A stretch of DNA of 64,000 bases from Barnesiella sp. An55 (GTDB taxonomy: Bacteria; Bacteroidota; Bacteroidia; Bacteroidales; Barnesiellaceae), in assembly GCF_002161555.1 (NCBI RefSeq), contig NZ_NFHZ01000002.1, forward strand, positions 124,001 through 188,000. Direction: 5' to 3'. The notes beneath the pieces were generated by a model. That model did no database searches. It was given only the letters and a program-made list of their open reading frames with translations, and was not told the origin of the DNA. Below, piece by piece: positions 2,998 to 64,000 of the stretch. Each line of letters starts with the position of its first letter. Within the stretch, counting starts at the first letter, position 1. The translations under genes were made by a program, and so were the position numbers.

Positions 2998-3975
2998 TCA
3001 GAACGCCACTTTACGATTACCGCGGGAAGTTTGTAAGATATAGAATCCGTCAGGGAATCGCAATTCATTGTCGTTACCACTGTATACCTCACGACCATTC
3101 AAATCGTAGATGCGAATCTCTTTACCCGCAGGATTATGCAACATGCCTCCACTCACTATAATATCGCCAACTTCAACAGCATTAATGCCAGATTCAACAT
3201 CTTTAATCGCACCAAAGTCTCTCCAAACCTCTGCAGTCCTATATTTATCAACACTTAAAGAAGGGACAAACAATTGGACATCGCTAAGACCAACATTTTC
3301 GAAAACATTTGACAAAATTTGTTGGGGCTCTTTGGCATAGTTTATGACCTTTTGCAGCCCAAAGCAACCCGAAAAGGCTTGCTCGCCGATTGATGTAACA
3401 GATTCAGGAATGGTGACTGAGGTTAGCCTATAGCTGCTTAAAAACGCATCATCTTCGATAGATATAACAGATTCTGGGATTATGTAAGTAGTTCTACTAT
3501 TTCCCATAGGGTATTGAATAAGAGTTGTTGCTTCGAAATCAAATAAGACTCCATCAATGGATTTATAGTGATTATTTCCATTCTCTACATTTATCGTTGT
3601 CAGTCTAAAGCTGTTGGAGAAAGCCTTATCGCCGATTGATATGACAGATTCAGGAATGGTGACTGAGGTTAGCCCATTACAGCCCCAAAAAGCATAATTA
3701 CCAATAGATATAACTGAATTCGGAATTATATAAGCAACTCTACTATTTCCCATAGGGTATTGAATAAGAGTTGTTGCTTCGAAATCAAATAAGACTCCAT
3801 CAATGGATTTATAGTGATTATTTCCATTCTCTACATTTATCATTGTTAGTCCAGAGCTGTTGGAGAAAGCCTTATCGCCGATTGATATAACAGATTCAGG
3901 AATGGTGACTGAGGTTAGCCCATTGCAGTAATAAAAAGCATAATCGCCAATGGATGCAACGGAACTTCCAAGCAT
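2998..3975 (-). pseudogene. BspA-like leucine-rich repeat surface protein, C-terminal part (5'-truncated)
   Basis: The 325 residues form BspA/LRR_5 repeats of the type SVISIGDKAF...LTSVTIPES, a fold used by secreted Bacteroidales adhesins, and end in a probable T9SS-like sorting tail (IRIYDLNGREVYSG ... GFYILQTSRGNRKVAF). In the same frame LRR coding continues upstream of the Met to about 4085 (a CSGLTSVVIPN block and a further SIGESAFYGCSGL block) and then meets a TAA with no start codon or signal peptide. The true N-terminus is therefore missing, replaced by a transposase fragment. An 82-residue segment is duplicated internally. It might still be translated from the internal ATG, but without a signal peptide it could not reach the surface. 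Confidence 0.75.
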
Positions 3976-4052: not shown

Positions 4053-4316
4053 TTAGTCCAGAACAATAACATATTCCTGTAGCTTTGCAAACAACAATGG
4101 CTTACTGTCAATACCAACAGTTTCTGATGTCATATTCAATGCCATTATTTCAAGGTCTGAGAATCCAGGGACTACTCCTTTTCTAGGCACATTCCCTGAT
4201 TCATTGACAAAATTTCCAGCTACTTGCTTGCATATGTTCAGAAATTTTGCGAATATTGCATATAGTTTGTGTGTATGATATTTGCCCATTAAAAGTATAC
4301 ATAACTTTTTATACAT
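4053..4316 (-). pseudogene. IS982-family-like transposase, N-terminal fragment
   Basis: The 87 codons include NVPRKGVVPGFSDLEIMALN, then MTSETVGIDSKPLLFAKLQEY, which resembles the N-terminal region of Bacteroides IS982-type transposases (FSDLEVIALSLTAE...FGIDSENFLFAKL). Likeness ends near residue 79, after which the reading frame runs out of frame across LRR DNA and stops. The DDE catalytic domain is absent. The junction with LRR sequence lies at about 4060-4090, so an IS insertion followed by deletion probably removed the head of the LRR gene. The family assignment is from remembered motifs, not a search. Confidence 0.6.
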
Positions 4317-4348
4317 AAATCTTTTATCAATTTAATTCCACTAACGGT

Positions 4349-4765
4349 ATGAAAACAGGAAATTTATTCAAAATTCTTTTATTAATAATCTTTGCAACGA
4401 CATTTGTCGCATGTGAAAGCGAGGAAAAAGATGGAGATTGGGAAGCGATGAAATGGGAAACCAATGTATCAAATATCAATAAAAACAAGATAGAAGTACC
4501 CAATGAGGGTGGCGTTTATGTCATTAAATGTACGAATTATAAAAGTTTTTGGATTAATGCGTTGTCTGAAAACGGTGAGTCTCTTCCAATAGATAATGAA
4601 GATGAAAAAATAGAAAGAGAGTGGTACTCTATAAAAATAAATGATGGAAACACCATGACTGTTTCGATTCTATCGAATAGTAGTGATGACAATAGAACTT
4701 TGAAAATAGGAATTCAAGCAGAAAATGCTTTTGATTCATTTTTGTTTGAGCAAAATAAGAACTAA
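4349..4765 (+). CDS. Small secreted lipoprotein, BACON-like (unknown function)
   Basis: A 138-residue protein with a type II signal peptide: MKTGNLFK, a hydrophobic stretch, and the lipobox TFVAC with Cys near residue 22. The mature part is mostly beta (NEGGVYVIKCTNYKSFWI ... RTLKIGIQAENAFDSFLFEQ), which resembles the strand pattern of BACON-type domains common in Bacteroidales lipoproteins; that is a weak inference. It is AT-rich and lies in the tRNA-Lys island, on the opposite strand to the broken LRR genes. No promoter with a clear TAnnTTTG was found upstream. A terminator hairpin follows at 4811-4856. Confidence 0.72.
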   Translation: MKTGNLFKILLLIIFATTFVACESEEKDGDWEAMKWETNVSNINKNKIEVPNEGGVYVIKCTNYKSFWINALSENGESLPIDNEDEKIEREWYSIKINDGNTMTVSILSNSSDDNRTLKIGIQAENAFDSFLFEQNKN

Positions 4766-5730: not shown

Positions 5731-6109
5731 AATATTTGAGAAATTTAAAGAATTCTAATTATTAGTATCTTGGTGAAGATCTTACTAACTCCCCTATATA
5801 AGACAGTGCAAATTTAAATAAAATTGTTATATAAAAGTTTTTTTTGAAAATAATTTACATATGGTTCTTCCAAAAGTTCCAAGCCTTAGACTCGATGAAA
5901 ACGCCAAATTCTTGCCATCGTTTCTTATCGCTGTTATAGATATAAATTATTAAAAGAGGTCGCCATTAACAAAAGCTTTGACTTAGTCAACTAGCAACGT
6001 ACGATATTGATGGTTGCGCTCATAGAACACTTTCAAACCTAATCGACCAAATTCCCGATGCGCTCCACTGCCTCCCTCTTTTTCCGCAGAGAGCCCGAGC
6101 GCAAGTGAC
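5731..6109. other. AT-rich intergenic stretch at the right end of the island
   Basis: Apart from the promoter-like box at 5809-5816 nothing is supported. Minus-strand peptides such as YNSDKKRWQEFGVFIESKAW (about 5862-5945) and REFGRLGLKVFYERNHQYR (about 5987-6060) read like gene remnants, but I cannot assign them. Confidence 0.4.
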
Positions 6110-6202
6110 ACAAAAAAAGCGCCTACATTTCGATGTAAGCGCTGTCGTGTGTGACCCCGGAGGGGCTCGAACCCTCGACCCAATGATTAAGAGTCATTTG
6201 CT
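6110..6202 (-). repeat. Right copy of the 93-94 bp tRNA-Lys/terminator direct repeat (att-like)
   Basis: Covers the terminator, spacer and 3' two-thirds of the intact tRNA-Lys gene, and matches 2661-2754. In the usual model this copy was brought in by the element and restored the tRNA, while the left copy is the displaced original 3' end. Confidence 0.85.
6112..6142 (-). terminator. tRNA-Lys terminator
   Basis: Minus-strand hairpin GCGCTTACAT / ATGTAGGCGC with a GAAA-type loop (6119-6142) followed by seven T. Confidence 0.85.
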
Positions 6203-6224
6203 CTACCAACTGAGCTACGGAGTC
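6152..6224 (-). tRNA. tRNA-Lys (anticodon CTT)
   Basis: A 73-nt cloverleaf on the minus strand: acceptor GACTCCG with CGGGGTC, D arm TAGCTCAGTTGG, anticodon loop ACTCTTAATC (anticodon CTT), T loop GGTTCGAGCCC. The discriminator is A and no CCA is encoded. It is the intact integration target at the right edge of the AT-rich island. Confidence 0.96.
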
Positions 6225-6243
6225 ATTCCTGTAGGAACGGGTG

Positions 6244-6274
6244 CAAAGGTAATGCTTTTCGAGAAATACACCAA
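6244..6274 (-). promoter_or_regulatory. Promoter of tRNA-Lys
   Basis: On the minus strand, TTG at 6272-6274 and TACCTTTG at 6244-6251 are 20 bases apart, the spacing of Bacteroides-type promoters, and lie 20 bases before the tRNA. Confidence 0.75.
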
Positions 6275-6360
6275 CGATTCTTCAAAAAAAATTTACCTCA
6301 ACCCTCAAATTTCGTAAAAAACATCGGTTTCTCCCTCTCGCACCGACCCTCTGGCAAAGG

Positions 6361-7176
6361 TTATTCCTCGGGCTCTTCAAAGGTATAGAGTGCCGAAGGG
6401 TGGTTGCGGGTAAGCGCTACCAGTTCCACATCCTTGCCCACGCGGATACCCTCTTCGTAGAGCCGGTTTTCGATAGTCTTGTAGGCCAGTTCGGGGTGGT
6501 TGTTGTCGCCGCTCAGGTGACACAGGAAGATGTTACGCAAGGCCGGCGTATAGATGTGAGCCAGATAGTCGGCCGTGCGGGCGTTGTCCATGTGGCCGTT
6601 GTCGGCGAGAATACGCCGCTTGAGGTGAGGCGGATAGGTGCCATGCTGCAACATGGCCTCGTCGTAGTTCGACTCGATAACCAGGTAGTTGGCCTGCCGC
6701 AGATACTTGTCGGCCGTAGGGGTAATGGTTCCCAGGTCGGTGGCAAAGGCAAAATGAAGATTGCCGTAGGTAATAAAAAAGCCCACGTTGTCGCTCCCGT
6801 CGTGGGGCACCTCGAAGGCGGTAATGGTGAAATCCTTTATCTTGAACGGCACCTCCTTAATGATGGCCCGGTGGGCACTATACACTTTATCGACCATGCA
6901 GTAGTTGCGGTTCATGCCGTTCTTGATAGTCTCGGTAGTATAGATGGGGATTCCGTATTTTTCGCCCAGCGTTCCGGCGGCCTTGATGTGGTCGGCATGG
7001 TCGTGGGTGATGCACAAGGCGACGATTTTCTCAAACGGGATGCCATATTCTCTCAACACTTTTTTGATTGTGCGCACCCCTTTGCCGGCATCGATCAGTA
7101 TGCCATACTCTTCCGTTCCCAAATAATAACAGTTGCCGCTGCTTCCGCTGGCCAAGCTCAGAAATTGCAAGCTCAT
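6361..7176 (-). CDS. WalJ/YycJ-like metallo-beta-lactamase fold hydrolase
   Basis: A 271-residue single-domain MBL-fold enzyme. It begins with FLSLASGSSGNCYYLG (residues 5-20), typical of the WalJ/YycJ group, has DAG at 29-31 and the metal-binding THDHADH at 57-63; further His ligands are in CHLSGDNNHPE near residue 225. In Firmicutes the family is linked to nucleic acid repair and wall homeostasis; the role here is inferred only. A longer frame reaches 7221, but the start at 7176 has the purine-rich GAGGAGAAAAAAGG just upstream and matches the family N-terminus. A TATCTTTG box at 7199-7206 supports this start. Confidence 0.88.
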   Translation of the reverse strand: MSLQFLSLASGSSGNCYYLGTEEYGILIDAGKGVRTIKKVLREYGIPFEKIVALCITHDHADHIKAAGTLGEKYGIPIYTTETIKNGMNRNYCMVDKVYSAHRAIIKEVPFKIKDFTITAFEVPHDGSDNVGFFITYGNLHFAFATDLGTITPTADKYLRQANYLVIESNYDEAMLQHGTYPPHLKRRILADNGHMDNARTADYLAHIYTPALRNIFLCHLSGDNNHPELAYKTIENRLYEEGIRVGKDVELVALTRNHPSALYTFEEPEE

Positions 7177-57495: not shown

Positions 57496-58360
57496 ATGAT
57501 TAATCGTATGATGAGAAAAGGCGTATTTCTACTATCGAGTGTCTTGCTGGCTTCGTTGTGCGGAGCCGGTTGTCACTCGTCGCAAAAGCAGGCCACGGCT
57601 ACCGACGAAGAGCAGACCGTATTTGCCTGCACCGACAGCGTCACCACCGTGTGTGACAGTGTAAAACTGACCCAAATCAGAGACAATGCCCAGGAGCGGC
57701 TCATGCAGTTGAGTCTCTTCGGCGAACTGCCGCAAGAGCTCATCGACAGTCTGGGGATAAGCCAGGGAGTCCCGGCCTCGATAAGTGCATTCCTGCTGGA
57801 GATTGACGGGAAACGCATCTTGTTCGACACCGGCATGGGTGCTCCCGACAGCCGATCGCTGGCCAACCTGTCGGCCGCCGGAGCCACTCCCGATGATATC
57901 GACTACATCTATCTGTCTCACTTCCACGGCGACCACATCGGCGGTATGATGAAGGGCGACAGCATCGTTTTTCCGAGGGCCGAAGTCTATGCCGCCCAGC
58001 AGGAGTATGACAGTTGGATGCAGATGCCCGACGACAAGAAGGTCCAAGTCGCAACCACAATGGAGGCCTATAAAGACCGTGCATCTCGTAGCCTATGGTG
58101 ACACGTTGCCTTGCGGCGTAATAGCGCTCGACTGTGCCGGACACACCCCGGGCCATACCGCCTACCAGGCCGGCCGTTTCCTCATCGTGGGTGACCTGGT
58201 ACACGGCGCTGCCCTGCAACTGGCTCACCCCGAGATTTGTGCCGCCTACGACATGGATCCGCAAGCCGCCGTCAAACAGCGTCGCTACTACCTCGACTAT
58301 GCCCGCCAGAACCACCTGTTCCTGGCCGGCATGCACCAGCCGGCCGGTCATGCCCGATGA
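57496..58360 (+). pseudogene. MBL-fold lipoprotein hydrolase, interrupted by a frameshift
   Basis: The first frame (57496-58101) gives a lipoprotein signal (lipobox GAGC, Cys26) and the first metal motif LSHFHGDHIGG (His142-His147) but then runs into RASRSLW and stops. The +1 frame continues the family sequence: VHLVAYGDTLPCGVIALDC, AGHTPGHTAYQAGRFLIVGD and LVHGAALQLAHPE, ending at 58360. The shift lies between about 58060 and 58095. Joined, the two would make a normal MBL-fold enzyme of about 290 residues, related to quorum-quenching-lactonase-like hydrolases. As read, the product lacks the second half of the metal site. Confidence 0.82.
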
Positions 58361-58497: not shown

Positions 58498-59535
58498 ATG
58501 AATAACTATTTATTGCTATTATCTAAATATCGTGACAATATTATGGGTATCGCAATAATTTGGATAATGATGTTTCATCTCCCTTTTCGGCCCAATATGC
58601 CAATAGTCAATGATATTATGGACATCGGTTATGGAGGTGTAGATCTATTTTTATTCTTATCGGGTTTCGGATTATATTTTTCTTTGTCAAAAAAGAATAC
58701 AGATTTAGCACAATATTACAAAAAGAGATTCTGTAGAATTCTACCTGAATTCTGGCTATTTTTAATTGTTACATATGTCGTATCTATGAATTTCGATATT
58801 CATAGTTTTTGGAATCTTATCTGTCAAGCAACGACAATTGGCTACTGGGTACCGAATGTTCCATATACTTTATGGTATATATCGTGTATCCTATTTTTTT
58901 ATGCCATATTCCCCGTCTATTTTAAGCTCTTCAAAAAATATGGTTTTAAGATTCCTATACTTATTGAAATTGCTGGATTTATTCTCATCATTATTTATGC
59001 ATGGGTAATGATCTTTTATTTCAATAATACCAATAAAGGGAGGGATTTAATTCTAACAATAGCTCGTATTCCTATCTTTTTTATAGGAACTATTGCAGGC
59101 TATTGGGTAAAAAATGCTATTGATATTAAAATTACGCGCAAGAAAATAGCTTTTGCCTTACTGATATTTACTGGATCAATAATATTGCTTGAATATTTCT
59201 TACATTTTTGTAGAGACTACCTTTGGACTTGTGCTCTTTATTTTTTGCCATTTATCATCATAGCCCCCATATTAAGTATAATCATAGCCATTGTCATGGA
59301 TAAAATACCTAAATCCATTTCTTCACTATTTGCCAAGATAGGAAGTATTTCTTTAGAGTTATATATTGTTCATGAATATTTATATCAGAAGCTAATTCAT
59401 AATTTAACGAATGAATTTGGAACCTATATATCGATATTTACAGTAATAGCATTGTCGTTTATTTTGGCCATTATTCTTTACAAGATTAACAAAATATTAT
59501 TACAGAGAATATTCAAAAAAGTATTGAATCTGTAG
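58498..59535 (+). CDS. Acyltransferase-3 family membrane protein (OafA-like)
   Basis: A 345-residue protein with about ten membrane spans. The start (NIMGIAIIWIMMFHLPFRPN, DIGYGGVDLFLFLSGFGLYF, YYKKRFCRILPEFWLFLIV) is the acyltransferase-3 pattern with the conserved His in the first span and the R/E pair after the third. These enzymes O-acetylate surface sugars such as O-antigen or exopolysaccharide. It is much more AT-rich than its left neighbours and has no associated sugar genes, suggesting later gain. No TAnnTTTG promoter is clear upstream. Confidence 0.9.
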   Translation: MNNYLLLLSKYRDNIMGIAIIWIMMFHLPFRPNMPIVNDIMDIGYGGVDLFLFLSGFGLYFSLSKKNTDLAQYYKKRFCRILPEFWLFLIVTYVVSMNFDIHSFWNLICQATTIGYWVPNVPYTLWYISCILFFYAIFPVYFKLFKKYGFKIPILIEIAGFILIIIYAWVMIFYFNNTNKGRDLILTIARIPIFFIGTIAGYWVKNAIDIKITRKKIAFALLIFTGSIILLEYFLHFCRDYLWTCALYFLPFIIIAPILSIIIAIVMDKIPKSISSLFAKIGSISLELYIVHEYLYQKLIHNLTNEFGTYISIFTVIALSFILAIILYKINKILLQRIFKKVLNL

Positions 59536-59563
59536 CATTGATATTGTCAACAATAAAATCAGT

Positions 59564-61183
59564 TCATTCTTTATACAGACCTTGTGCCTTCCACGCAGAA
59601 TAAAGGACTCTCATAGAATATATTTTGGGAAGGAGTATCGACCAAGTAAAAATGGTAACATATAACATTGCAGAACCATTCAATAACAAGGTCAAAATAG
59701 TAAGAGATACCAAAGAAAAGCCTACCGACGGCCCCACTTTTTTAGTTAATAACTCTGCGTATGGATCTGGTTTGGATAGGCAACCTTCATGCCCTTCAAA
59801 ATGTGAGGGATTCAATTTAGCCAACGCTTTTTGTATTCCGTTAGGCAAAGTCCCAGCAACAAGGATCCATGCACTTGGTAATTTATATCCAACCACCCCT
59901 ATAAAGAAAATCAAAGAAAGCCACCATGATCTTGGAATATTATTATGCATATTCTGCTGAGTAACAGTAATAGTCATTTCATGATTCCAACCATATAATT
60001 GCATAACTGTAATATCCGCCAAATTACACATTGCATAAAATAGCACTATAGTAATACATGTAATCGCAAAAGACAAAGCTACAGATAGTAAAGAGAGATG
60101 GAATTTTACTTTCACATTATTTTTATCATATCCTCCACCAACAACATTTGCCACCACGACCAAAAGAATAGCACATAATGCACTTAATAAGATTACTGCT
60201 ATAGTAACAGAATGAACAACAGAAATTAAAAAATTGACAAATATGCGAGGTATAGCTATTACCCAAGAAAATACATATTTATAAAAGAAACTATTAGAAG
60301 GTAATATAACTTCTTTCGTCAATGTTTCACTTATCAAATCTCCCAAAGAAACCCAGCTAACATTTCTTCTAACCATCCAGCTAGACTTTTCATATTCTTT
60401 AGAAGCCTTATCTATCAATAACAACAAATCTTGCATAGACTTCACTAAACCCGTATTTCTTGCCTCTAATTGAATATTCAATAATTTATCTGGCATAGCC
60501 ATCTCTATAAACTTCATAGCATTGCCTTCATTCTGCACTTGCATCAGACCTATATCTTTAATGAAAGTAACCAAATATATATCCTCATCTGCGACATTAG
60601 GCAGTTTATGAGCAAGCTCTTGTTTTAAGATTTTTCTAACAGAACTGTTATAATCTAAAATAACTCCTTTATCAATAGTGTCTATAGTCCATAATACTAC
60701 ACTCACGTTTTTTCCATCAAAAATTTGACAAATATCCAAACTATCTGCCAATGAAAGAACTCCAGCATTATCATAGATCAATATTTCAGGAGGCTTGACA
60801 GCAAAAGACTCTTTTGCCTCCTGCTGTACTGATTCAGACGATGCTTGTTCTGTTTCCGATTCTTTTTCTGCATAATAAGCTCGAGAAACAAGAGTCAGAT
60901 ATTTCGCCGACACATATGCCTCTTTGGATTCATACTGTATCTTAGCCCAATTACCCTCTATATCAATTACATAAACCTTATCTTCATTATATAGTGAGCC
61001 TATTTTAAGACTATTAGAAGACGGTTTCGACCGCACATTCAAACTTGATTTTATACGTACCTCATACAAATCATACAATTGTTCCGACTCTTTTTCATGA
61101 CTACGAAAATGAATACATGAAAAAGACAAGAGCAAAGAAAGAAAAAGAAAAATTTTCACAAATAAGGTCGAACGTTTTAGCAT
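59564..61183 (-). CDS. Membrane lipoprotein with SH3 domain and TPM-like domain (unknown function)
   Basis: A 539-residue protein. Lipobox LSFSC (Cys23); bacterial SH3 domain at about 35-100 (IKSSLNVRSKPSSNSLKIGS, VIDIEGNWAKIQYES); Glu/Ser-rich linker; a region at about 130-270 with the outline of a TPM-type domain (ILIYDNAGVLSLADSLDICQ, VSVVLWTIDTID, ELAHKLPNVADEDIYLVTFI, GLMQVQNEGNAMKF). Then six or so membrane spans (310-400, 420-450, 490-530). TPM domains occur in proteins of photosystem repair and in membrane-linked stress proteins. The AT-rich composition equals that of the neighbouring acyltransferase gene, and their 3' ends face each other with 28 bases between. Confidence 0.78.
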   Translation of the reverse strand: MLKRSTLFVKIFLFLSLLLSFSCIHFRSHEKESEQLYDLYEVRIKSSLNVRSKPSSNSLKIGSLYNEDKVYVIDIEGNWAKIQYESKEAYVSAKYLTLVSRAYYAEKESETEQASSESVQQEAKESFAVKPPEILIYDNAGVLSLADSLDICQIFDGKNVSVVLWTIDTIDKGVILDYNSSVRKILKQELAHKLPNVADEDIYLVTFIKDIGLMQVQNEGNAMKFIEMAMPDKLLNIQLEARNTGLVKSMQDLLLLIDKASKEYEKSSWMVRRNVSWVSLGDLISETLTKEVILPSNSFFYKYVFSWVIAIPRIFVNFLISVVHSVTIAVILLSALCAILLVVVANVVGGGYDKNNVKVKFHLSLLSVALSFAITCITIVLFYAMCNLADITVMQLYGWNHEMTITVTQQNMHNNIPRSWWLSLIFFIGVVGYKLPSAWILVAGTLPNGIQKALAKLNPSHFEGHEGCLSKPDPYAELLTKKVGPSVGFSLVSLTILTLLLNGSAMLYVTIFTWSILLPKIYSMRVLYSAWKAQGLYKE

Positions 61184-61468: not shown

Positions 61469-61981
61469 CTACAACTCCTTCGTGAGGCTGAACTCTTTAT
61501 CGGCAAAGAGTTCGGCCAAACCCGAAATCTGTTTGTAGCGCAACAGTTCGTCCTTGTCCATCCCGATATTTTTCATAATCCAACTGTCCGACATTCCGGC
61601 TCGGGTGAGTTCTGAAACAATCTCGCACATCAGTTCGACATTGTGTGTACCACGGGCCCGGTTGTGACGAATGGTCGAAGCCATGCGGTTCGAGATATCC
61701 TTGTCGATGACCACCACCGGCAGCAGCCCCTTTTCCCGTTCATATATACGCCGCGAGGTAAGCATCACCTTGTAGCGGTGATAGCCATCGACCAGTTCAT
61801 ACTGGTCGGTCTCGGGCAGATAGTAACACACGCAAGGCATCGTATAACCATCCTCCCAAATAGAGAGTTCGAGCAGCCGCATCTCGGGCGGAGCCACGAC
61901 ATTGGGGTTATAGGTATTGGCCACCACCTTCTCTACGGGCACGGCCCGCACATGATAGACAGGACTTTTATATGCTTCCAT
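61469..61981 (-). CDS. IbrB-like ParB N-terminal-domain protein
   Basis: A 170-residue ParB/Srx-fold protein: VRAVPVEKVVANTYNPNVVA at the start, LLELSIWEDGYTMPCVCYYL, the phosphate-binding ELVDGYHRYKVML (ParB box II-like GxHR) near 74-86, and RMASTIRHNRARGTHN near 110-125 with a C-terminal helical part. The pairing with a PAPS-reductase-like gene matches IbrB of the IbrA/IbrB pair, first described as regulators of immunoglobulin-binding protein genes in E. coli. ParB-fold domains of this type can be nucleotide hydrolases or DNA-binding regulators. It starts one base after the IbrA-like stop codon. Confidence 0.85.
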   Translation of the reverse strand: MEAYKSPVYHVRAVPVEKVVANTYNPNVVAPPEMRLLELSIWEDGYTMPCVCYYLPETDQYELVDGYHRYKVMLTSRRIYEREKGLLPVVVIDKDISNRMASTIRHNRARGTHNVELMCEIVSELTRAGMSDSWIMKNIGMDKDELLRYKQISGLAELFADKEFSLTKEL

Positions 61982-61982
61982 T

Positions 61983-63275
61983 TTACTTTGTCAACGCTTT
62001 ATATTTTTCCAACACTTGATCTTTCAACTCCTTCTCGGCCTTGGTGAGCGAGAACCCCATATACTTGCAGGTGTGATCGTTCTTGAGAATACAGATACAC
62101 ATGCGTTTGAAGGAGGGCAACTCCTTGAACTCGGGCAGGTCGATATCGTCGAGATACCCCATCTTCACGGGCCGTTTACTGGTCTTGTAGTTGGAGTGGT
62201 CGCCCACGACGATAGGGATTCCCAAGGCCTCCAGTTTCTGGATGGTTTCGTCGGAGAGGCACCCTCCCTTTTCCCGCCAGAAGTTGATGCTCACAGACAG
62301 TTTGCGCTGATAATTGCGACGCGTCTTCTCGGGCAGCGTTTTCAACAGGAAATCAAGATAACCCTCCCACGTCATGCCGGGCGGCAACTTGATCGAATGC
62401 CATCCCATCATCGAAGTGCGCCCATAGAGCCCGGCAAAATTCACCCCATTGACCCTACTCACCATCTTGCCCCACATATCGGGGTCGATCACCCGGTAGA
62501 GCCGCAAACTGGCTACGGCCTGCGAGATGAAGGGACTGGCAACCCGCTGCTTGTCGAGTGGTACGCCTGCCCGATAGTAAAGATCGTAGAGGCGATTGTA
62601 GTCCCAGCCGAAACGGCCGTTGGCCACCCAGATATCGGTTGTGAGCCAGTCGTGTATGGGATAGGCATTGCAGATGACATGTTTCATCTCGCGAATCCAC
62701 TTGAGGCCCTTGTACTTCTTGTAATTGCGGTCGCTGTGCACGGTGCGCCAGCGATTCAGACTCTCCTGGGTGCGTATGCCTATCAGGCAGCAGGTGCGTC
62801 GGGCACCCATGCGCCGATGCAGCCACTCGGCAAACTTGATTTGGAACTCATAATCCCACAAGGCATCGGTAAAGAAATCGAAATCGGCCTGCGTATAGGC
62901 CCCCTCGGGCAGGTCTCTCACCCACAAATCGCGCTTCGACTCTTCCCACGGTCGCCAATAGGACTGGAACATCGAGGTACAGGTAGAGACCTTGCAGGGC
63001 ACGCACACCCGATAAACGTCCAATATGTCGGCATTGGAAGCCAGCACACGATCGACGTAACGGGTAGTCTCCTGGTATTGCACCTCATAGTCTATATGAA
63101 ACACACCCAGCCGACGCCCCGGCTGCCGACGTCGCAGATAGTCGATGCAGAGGTTGAGCAACACCCCGCTGTCTTTCCCGCCCGAAAAGGAGACATACAC
63201 GTTGTCGAAGTCGGTAAATACCCGTTCGAGGCGCTCCATGGCCACATCATACACACTGCTTCTGAACGTGTTCAT
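61983..63275 (-). CDS. IbrA-like PAPS-reductase-family protein (DUF3440)
   Basis: A 430-residue protein. The PP-loop VSFSGGKDSGVLLNLCIDYL (28-47) is that of adenosine-phosphosulfate/PAPS reductase-type ATP pyrophosphatases; RVCVPCKVSTCTSMF supplies three Cys that could bind metal or an Fe-S cluster; GIRTQESLNRWRTVHSDRNY and YPIHDWLTTDIWVANGRFGW are typical of the DUF3440 group. It is much longer than CysH and lacks its C-terminal ECGLH. Likely uses ATP to modify a nucleic acid or other substrate; unknown. The start at 63275 overlaps the acetyltransferase stop by 4 bases (ATGA) behind GTAGGGAG, which decides it over the upstream Met at 63311. Confidence 0.88.
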   Translation of the reverse strand: MNTFRSSVYDVAMERLERVFTDFDNVYVSFSGGKDSGVLLNLCIDYLRRRQPGRRLGVFHIDYEVQYQETTRYVDRVLASNADILDVYRVCVPCKVSTCTSMFQSYWRPWEESKRDLWVRDLPEGAYTQADFDFFTDALWDYEFQIKFAEWLHRRMGARRTCCLIGIRTQESLNRWRTVHSDRNYKKYKGLKWIREMKHVICNAYPIHDWLTTDIWVANGRFGWDYNRLYDLYYRAGVPLDKQRVASPFISQAVASLRLYRVIDPDMWGKMVSRVNGVNFAGLYGRTSMMGWHSIKLPPGMTWEGYLDFLLKTLPEKTRRNYQRKLSVSINFWREKGGCLSDETIQKLEALGIPIVVGDHSNYKTSKRPVKMGYLDDIDLPEFKELPSFKRMCICILKNDHTCKYMGFSLTKAEKELKDQVLEKYKALTK

Positions 63276-63667
63276 CTCCCTACATACTTCATTTTGACAT
63301 ACAACTTCCAACGTTTCACCTCGGTAAATCCACAGGACACAAACGCCTCTTCATGCCGAATGTGAGCCATCGCATAGAGCGGATACTTTGATGCAAACTC
63401 ATCAATAGCCGCGTTGACCAAAGCCGTCAACAACTCGGGCGAATCGCCCGACGCATAATAATTGTCGATAAATGCCCCGGCCATACGACGCTCGACTGGC
63501 ATGAACCCTTCGACCCCATTCCCGTCTGAAGCCACAAACCACACATGTTTGCGCGAAGTCTTGAACGGGTAATTGTTGTTCTGACGAATGATGGGAATAC
63601 TCATCGTCAGTGGAGCAACAAGCGTATAGAGCCGAGGTTCGGTTCCCTGTATTTTTTCGATTATCAT
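63272..63667 (-). CDS. GNAT-like acetyltransferase-fold protein, first gene of the Ibr-like cassette
   Basis: A 131-residue protein whose strand-helix order (KHVWFVASDGNGVEGFMPVE, FIDNYYASGDSPELLTALVN, AAIDEFASKYPLYAMAHIRH, VSCGFTEVKRWKLYVKMKY) fits a small GNAT acetyltransferase fold, with GFTEVKRW as the usual last-strand signature. The acetyl-CoA pyrophosphate loop is not clear. It overlaps the IbrA-like gene by 4 bases, so all three genes form one transcript. A TATTTTTG box lies at 63740-63747 on the minus strand. The acetyl acceptor is unknown. Confidence 0.72.
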   Translation of the reverse strand: MIIEKIQGTEPRLYTLVAPLTMSIPIIRQNNNYPFKTSRKHVWFVASDGNGVEGFMPVERRMAGAFIDNYYASGDSPELLTALVNAAIDEFASKYPLYAMAHIRHEEAFVSCGFTEVKRWKLYVKMKYVGR

Positions 63668-64000
63668 GGTATAGCTCTTTTATTCAAAGAAACACATCTT
63701 CAAAAATATCTCCCCGAATGAGGCTGCATTTATTTCCCACAAAAATATAAAAGAAAAGAGACAAAACAGTATAAGGAGGTTGTAAAATCAATTTGTACTC
63801 TCTCCATAAATTCCAATCTCAAACCACTTTCAAACTCAAATTACATTTTGATACACAACTATTTGTTTCTTTCAAAAAAGAATCTATCTTTACCTATAAT
63901 TATGAAAAATTCTTAAACCCGGTCATTTTATTCAATAATAATTTTAGTTTTAGAATTATTCCAATTATATTTGCATCAGAAATAACAAACACAACAATAA
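63668..64000. other. AT-rich intergenic region at the window end
   Basis: No gene is visible. It holds the minus-strand -7 box at 63740-63747 for the Ibr-like cassette and a plus-strand TATATTTG at about 63967-63974 that may drive a gene beyond the window. Confidence 0.5.

Follow-up and report, generated by a model that had tools for sequence, protein, structure and literature searches.

A conserved cassette of GNAT-fold, IbrA-like and IbrB-like genes in Bacteroidales and its possible function

Gene order and conservation of the cassette

In the 64,000-nucleotide stretch of Barnesiella sp. An55 analysed here (contig NZ_NFHZ01000002.1, positions 124,001 to 188,000; hereafter the window), three genes on the minus strand form a closely coupled operon. 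These are gnat (63272..63667; 131 amino acids), encoding a GNAT-fold protein whose family occurs near IbrAB genes; an ibrA-like gene (61983..63275; 430 amino acids from its ATG), encoding a PP-loop (SGGKDS) PAPS-reductase-fold N-terminal domain and a DUF3440 C-terminal domain; and an ibrB-like gene (61469..61981; 170 amino acids), encoding a ParB/Srx-type protein with the motifs DGxHR and RHNxARGxH. The stop of gnat and the start of ibrA share an ATGA overlap at 63275-63272, and ibrA and ibrB are separated by one base (position 61982), as a preliminary description of this DNA had stated without giving the strand. The start of ibrA was taken at the ATG; the longer TTG frame reaching 63311 is a mechanical open reading frame (ORF) call. 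The AT-rich surroundings described earlier were likewise found, the G+C content being 52.7% in the trio vs 26.3% and 26.7% in the flanking gaps (the left one reaching to the next gene, the right one consisting of the 333 bases before the window end). A TAnnTTTG element (TATTTTTG) lies on the minus strand at 63740..63747, 74-81 bases 5' of gnat, and a matching element is kept in 8/8 genus members having gnat. We take TAnnTTTG to be the Bacteroides -7 consensus and the element to be the likely promoter element of the operon; the earlier claim of one likely promoter holds to this extent, with no -33 element established.

The cassette is real and tightly conserved. Seeding with GNAT alone yielded 43 loci, all from Bacteroidales going by record titles, and ibrA adjoins GNAT in every one of them (in L018 as two pieces); ibrB is then present in 41, the remaining two stopping at contig edges. 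Phocaeicola vulgatus ATCC 8482 (locus L015) is one strain that bears the trio. Among 295 genomes of the order, DUF3440 was found in 25 and GNAT in 22 of these, and none of the 270 DUF3440-negative genomes gave a strong GNAT match; weak matches in two of these, G190 (2.9e-4) and G291 (9.3e-4), were not counted as strong. Among the 24 DUF3440 loci outside the window's own genome, GNAT is directly upstream in 20, and one further locus (G278) is cut at a contig end with GNAT on another contig. A chance neighbourhood of the three genes is ruled out by the 43/43 adjacency and the co-occurrence (22/25 vs 0/270). The acetyltransferase suggested in the preliminary description is thus a true third member; far from being rarely next to IbrAB, it is next to it almost throughout. 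In a phylum-wide sample of 345 genomes, four match DUF3440 (one below the cut-off), and two of these four belong to the order.

Within the genus, IbrB is present in 9/9 genomes and GNAT in 8/9, at a single locus. Several upstream gene families are common to all nine genomes, and the flanks differ between genera. The ninth member, G639 (L202, C56), has lost gnat; its ibrA is without the start region and has an internal stop, and its ibrB is open. Purifying selection acts on each of the three genes within the genus: the median ratio of nonsynonymous to synonymous substitution rates is 0.125 (gnat), 0.06 (ibrA) and 0.036 (ibrB), calculated from 28 pairs per gene among 8 genomes, with 20, 16 and 21 pairs, respectively, unsaturated. 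Over 59 loci, the distance matrix of each protein correlates with those of the other two (Spearman 0.58-0.65, reached in 0 of 999 permutations), a figure uncorrected for shared species history.

Predicted folds and conserved residues

From its AlphaFold2 model (pLDDT, the predicted local distance difference test score, 95.8), the gnat product can confidently be predicted to have a GNAT fold over its whole length. The best PDB match is ElaA (5z6n; Z 13.8, root-mean-square deviation 2.4, 127 aligned residues); 853 of 999 chains compared reached Z >= 8, and the entries listed are mostly GNATs. In the alignment of 61 members, NNNYPFKT, W43, GF (F55) and NYY are near-invariant. The window protein has no Pfam match, no convincing PHROG match and no NCBIfam family at E <= 0.1, and thus no match to EctA (diaminobutyrate acetyltransferase), for which NCBIfam presumably contains a model. 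Pfam Acetyltransf_10 gave weak matches to five of the 61 members at E <= 0.5 (best 0.0014), and none to the window protein.

The identities earlier given to the other two products are borne out. The ibrA product matches PF11922 (DUF3440) at E 2.7e-90, with 301.4 bits vs a cut-off of 25, and PAPS_reduct at E 1.1e-12. Its predicted fold (model pLDDT 82.5) resembles CysH (6vpu; 6vpu_H at E 1.2e-7) and CysD (1zun), with TilS (3a2k) and NcsA (6scy) ranking below CysH among the Foldseek PP-loop matches. The hallmark of CysH is a C-terminal ECG catalytic cysteine motif; ECG is absent from the window IbrA sequence, and the CysH model NF002537 gave 13 bits vs a cut-off of 154. We found SGGKDS, D62, E64, C403 and KND to be conserved, with few exceptions, across Bacteroidales, phages and two plasmid copies (Vibrio and Klebsiella). 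C403 is kept in 63/63 Bacteroidales and 78/79 phage proteins, and C91 in 63/63 and 77/79; of the two plasmid copies, one lacks C91, and in that from Vibrio R108 is replaced by V.

The ibrB product matches the ParB-like phrog_2159 at E 1e-73; Pfam ParB_N, at 19.7 bits, stays under its cut-off of 26.3. The profile of the IbrB alignment (A3) matched Noc (7ol9) at E 4.7e-5, and the C-terminal helices resemble those of ParB, so that they may form a helix-turn-helix. Partition ParB proteins carry the CTPase motifs GERRxR and ENIQR; by reading of the sequence, DGxHR and RHNxARGxH replace these in IbrB. The latter motifs are the same, with few exceptions, in Bacteroidales, phages and the two plasmid copies, and eleven residues (D65, G66, H68, R69, R105, H106, N107, A109, R110, G111 and H113) are identical in 73/73 phage IbrB proteins compared. 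Such invariance would be unusual for a plain DNA-binding protein.

Phage and plasmid relatives and their partners

IbrA-like proteins match 214 of 50,697 phage records and occur on 598 of 72,556 plasmid records, mostly enterobacterial. Despite this abundance, the records examined name them just co-activators, PAPS reductases, DUF3440 or hypothetical proteins, and in four named phages the annotation reads PAPS reductase or IbrA for one member of the pair and ParB-like protein, IbrB or co-activator for the other. GNAT was found in just 4 of the 50,697 phage records, all unannotated gut-virome contigs, one of which has an IbrA 83% identical to that of the window; the trio also lies on a Bacteroides finegoldii plasmid record. 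A GNAT profile pattern search of viral contigs gave 35 matches, 0 of them confirmed by tblastn. Distant phage GNAT relatives were detected solely through a local profile search of the IbrA-seeded loci described below, and seeds from three of them retrieved just themselves or near copies.

We then compared the viral gene neighbourhoods using the best 80 of at least 385 IbrA relatives, the best 80 of at least 592 relatives of a protein of ∼145 amino acids (C2), and the best 80 of 172 relatives of an ectoine-synthase-like (EctC-like) cupin. The IbrA-seeded loci carry IbrB in 78 cases, C2 in 48, the EctC-like cupin in 43, an SNF2 helicase in 29 and a GNAT-profile match in five (L081, L095, L105, L117 and L119). 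The cupin is fused to IbrB in 22 loci and is a separate gene in 21 (19 between IbrA and IbrB, two elsewhere). The commonest orders are IbrA-EctC-IbrB-C2 (29, including fusions) and SNF2-IbrA-IbrB (22). EctC and GNAT were together in none of the 80 loci, a weak observation with just five GNAT loci. Seeding with EctC, IbrA was found in 79 of 80 loci (77 in a frame >300 amino acids) and IbrB in 78, the exception being a 3.5-kb piece; 17 of these 80 contigs overlap the IbrA-seeded set, as judged by eye. EctC-like cupins are dedicated IbrA-IbrB partners in phages. The C2-seeded tally covers 77 of 80 loci, leaving out L085, L118 and L154, which were already among the loci collected; an IbrA match is present in 76 (73 in a frame >300 amino acids) and IbrB in 73.

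C2 therefore occurs almost only with IbrAB. It is exemplified by L088 6789-7187 and has the motif N-R-x-A-W-I-G-H/Q; the alignment (A4) holds 35 members, among which one weak PHROG match was found, and the one member searched against Pfam had no match. A short stand-alone DUF3440 C-terminal piece (∼83 amino acids; e.g., L088 7132-7395) was found at 15 of the 87 phage and plasmid loci, in many cases adjacent to C2; in L081 (4341-4994) a GNAT is fused to such a piece. On the L105 contig, two different GNATs flank IbrA (4088-4477 and 6001-6396), one like the Bacteroidales family and one of an ordinary GNAT type.

The phage cupins offer a chemical hint. The L112 cupin (3138-3557), one of the 43 from these IMG/VR loci, matches Pfam Ectoine_synth at E 3.5e-43, and the cupin profile aligns end to end with the solved ectoine synthases 5bxx (E 6.2e-37) and 5onm (E 1.8e-36). 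Because the iron ligands (57, 85 and 93 in L112 numbering) and S23, R25, T40 and Y52 are kept in 20/20 phage cupins, these proteins probably still close a ring between an amine and an amide, on a substrate that may differ. W21, which touches the substrate in PlEctC according to PMC6344544, is replaced in all 20 separate phage cupins aligned. At position 38, where PlEctC has N, 11 of the 20 cupins have H and one has N; we dropped the loss of N38 as a sign of an altered cupin, as the solved ectoine synthase 5bxx also has H there. GNATs make amides from amines, and the GNAT and EctC-like partners both suggest that IbrAB handle an amine-bearing group.

Proposed function, rival explanations and known systems

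The three proteins probably form a single machine that chemically alters DNA or another molecule. Our tentative reading, possible rather than probable, is that the three genes work as a single unit, the form that a widespread IbrA-IbrB core takes on Bacteroidales chromosomes, and that this is a PP-loop/ParB-type modification core with swappable finishing enzymes, acting most likely on DNA. IbrA, as a PP-loop/PAPS-reductase-fold ATP pyrophosphatase, would activate the target by adenylation; IbrB, of ParB/Srx type, would bind a nucleotide via DGxHR and RHNxARGxH and target IbrA to nucleic acid, with DNA the likeliest kind. The GNAT would acylate or otherwise finish the group installed by IbrAB, and in many phages the EctC-like iron enzyme, in a similar slot, would close an amine-amide ring instead. 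For the bacterium, we would expect an epigenetic or regulatory mark and not a component of a restriction system. The ParB-type partner, the SNF2 helicase, the phage setting and the analogy with DpdB make DNA appear the likeliest target. The EctC-like enzyme found in the IbrAB operon of phages favours a modification role over a mere regulator. The nucleic-acid or protein modification proposed in the preliminary description is plausible, and its target could be DNA, RNA, protein or a small molecule. It is conceivable, if doubtful, that IbrA-IbrB forms the centre of a hitherto undescribed system for nucleic-acid hypermodification whose finishers are interchangeable (a GNAT without the CoA motif in gut Bacteroidales, an EctC-like iron cyclase in phages), and that Bacteroidales have kept it as a lasting, expression-affecting chromosomal mark. 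Such a mark, if true, would also explain the co-activator phenotype of E. coli IbrAB. Among the titles and abstract openings listed from openly licensed literature, none dealt with this cassette. The dedicated enzyme partners are a concrete chemical hint, an amine or amide group being acylated or cyclised, and make the function testable by mass spectrometry.

Several points weigh against this reading. The canonical coenzyme A (CoA) loop motif of GNATs, R/Q-x-x-G-x-G/A between strand 4 and helix 3, is present at the CoA loop in 0/61 members (four regular-expression matches lie elsewhere in the protein); the GNAT may therefore not be an acyltransferase and could be non-catalytic. IbrAB can work without GNAT, since it is missing at three of the 24 DUF3440 loci (G017, G052 and G097, with divergent IbrA proteins, 28-41% identical) and the annotations examined show none next to ybdNM of E. 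coli K-12 or next to the pairs on Vibrio and Klebsiella plasmids. The phage gene orders rest mostly on metagenomic contigs and best-80 lists, and phage replication regions may often contain SNF2 genes in any case. As the cupin keeps nearly all of the ectoine-synthase site, the substrate could be a free small molecule, and the modified base is itself something that we infer.

The trio could alternatively be a transcriptional co-activator in which IbrB is a sequence-specific DNA binder, IbrA its ATP-sensing partner and GNAT a third subunit or protein acetylase, with no nucleic acid modified. Such a role corresponds to how IbrAB have been described in the literature, namely as activating eib and prophage genes (the pair is called co-activators of prophage gene expression in a phage record and in a table of PMC4490671). 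It agrees with the ParB-type nature of IbrB (phrog_2159; Noc 7ol9), and the missing CoA motif would allow GNAT a structural role. We nevertheless consider it somewhat unlikely, given the full PP-loop of IbrA, the eleven IbrB residues identical in 73/73 phage proteins and in Bacteroidales, and an EctC-like enzyme with intact metal ligands in many phage operons, which has no clear place in a pure regulator. The trio could also serve a small-molecule pathway. IbrB would then be an amino-acid kinase of the SerK/SbnI kind and IbrA an enzyme of adenylation or sulfur chemistry, and GNAT or the EctC-like cupin would finish an ectoine-like or amino-acid-derived compound. Ectoine synthesis itself employs a GNAT and EctC in the same pathway, the ectoine-synthase site of the phage cupin is nearly complete, and the alignment of the A3 profile with SerK spans the VDGxHR motif but is not significant (E 0.22). 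We found no recurrent EctA- or EctB-like phage partner (small neighbour clusters being unannotated) and no biosynthetic family above four among the families listed for 120 Bacteroidales neighbour proteins, and the substrate-contacting W21 of PlEctC (PMC6344544) is replaced in 20/20 cupins, which makes such a pathway unlikely.

Modification of tRNA or other RNA, as with the PP-loop enzymes TilS (3a2k) and NcsA (6scy) that appear below CysH among the structural matches, is improbable: the ParB-type partner and the phage SNF2 helicase point to DNA, and presence in 25/295 genomes of the order is unlike core tRNA modification. An anti-phage defence module, as the preliminary description had envisaged, is very improbable, even with a patchy presence across the order and distant IbrA similarity to defence proteins, as IbrB is in 9/9 and GNAT in 8/9 genus genomes at one locus and the IbrA-IbrB core is itself a common phage gene set. 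In PADLOC, GNAT and IbrB matched no family at E <= 0.1, and IbrA matched solely over short stretches (BrxP at 2e-5; DndC at 1.4e-4 and 1.5e-3). The surroundings point the same way. The neighbour set comprised 120 proteins from 26 loci (out of 163 candidates in 29 loci, called by longest ORF and including some shadow ORFs). PADLOC matched 76 families at E <= 1e-10, and among the 25 listed, mad2 matches two proteins and the other 24 one each, many of the matches being to redundant PDC-S02 models. No Pfam family matches more than five of the 120; among the 25 commonest of 175 Pfam families, class I/II aminotransferases (four) are the largest biosynthetic family, and there is no sulfur family and no DndA, DndD or DndE family. 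These scattered matches argue against a defence island and give no support to a sulfur setting, let alone to the pair always lying beside sulfur genes, as had earlier been considered. As for a prophage setting, at which no dedicated search was aimed, GNAT was seen in just those 4 of 50,697 phage records.

Directly downstream of the trio, at 58498-61183, lie genes for an acyltransferase-3 membrane protein and a 539-amino-acid SH3-domain protein. This pair has no counterpart in the 20-kb stretches of the other eight genus members, which is indicative of an insertion here or a loss elsewhere. A metallo-beta-lactamase-like lipoprotein gene (57496-58360, named from its SHFHGDH motif) is split into the overlapping frames 57496-58101 and 57989-58360; G639 has a single open frame of 305 amino acids with a similar start, so that the split is either a real frameshift or a sequencing error.

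Among known systems, E. coli IbrA/IbrB and K-12 YbdN/YbdM are like the window pair in having a DUF3440 PP-loop protein followed by a ParB-like protein in overlapping genes, an arrangement also seen on Klebsiella and Vibrio plasmids. The plasmid pairs differ in that their IbrA is just 34-35% identical and no GNAT is annotated alongside. For ybdNM, the relevant part of PMC9068703 gives a regulatory setting only, repression by CitR. Phage modules (phrog_2302 and phrog_2159; e.g., Streptococcus phages PY1 and CHPC1148 and Mycobacterium phage Gaia) have the same order of IbrA then IbrB, the PY1 IbrA being 58% identical to that of the window, and a few metagenomic ones carry a GNAT of the window family; their usual third partner, however, is an SNF2 helicase or an EctC-like cupin with C2. 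CHPC1148, a phage of Streptococcus thermophilus, has SNF2, and Gaia has EctC fused to IbrB. Phage Mu Mom is a GNAT-like protein used on DNA, and serves as an analogy only, its sequence relation to the GNAT being undetectable (hhalign probability 0.6% with the single Mom sequence compared). The Dnd phosphorothioation analogy drawn earlier holds for the pairing of a PP-loop protein with a ParB-superfamily protein (DndB is so described in a passage of PMC10853773) and is otherwise distant, the window IbrA scoring 13.5 bits vs a DndC cut-off of 290.4. Unlike Dpd (DpdA, DpdB), the trio has a PP-loop enzyme in place of a TGT-like enzyme; what it would have in common with Dpd is a ParB-like ATPase working with a DNA-modifying enzyme, DpdB being reported, in the section of PMC12839542 that deals with it, to serve 7-deazaguanine insertion into DNA.

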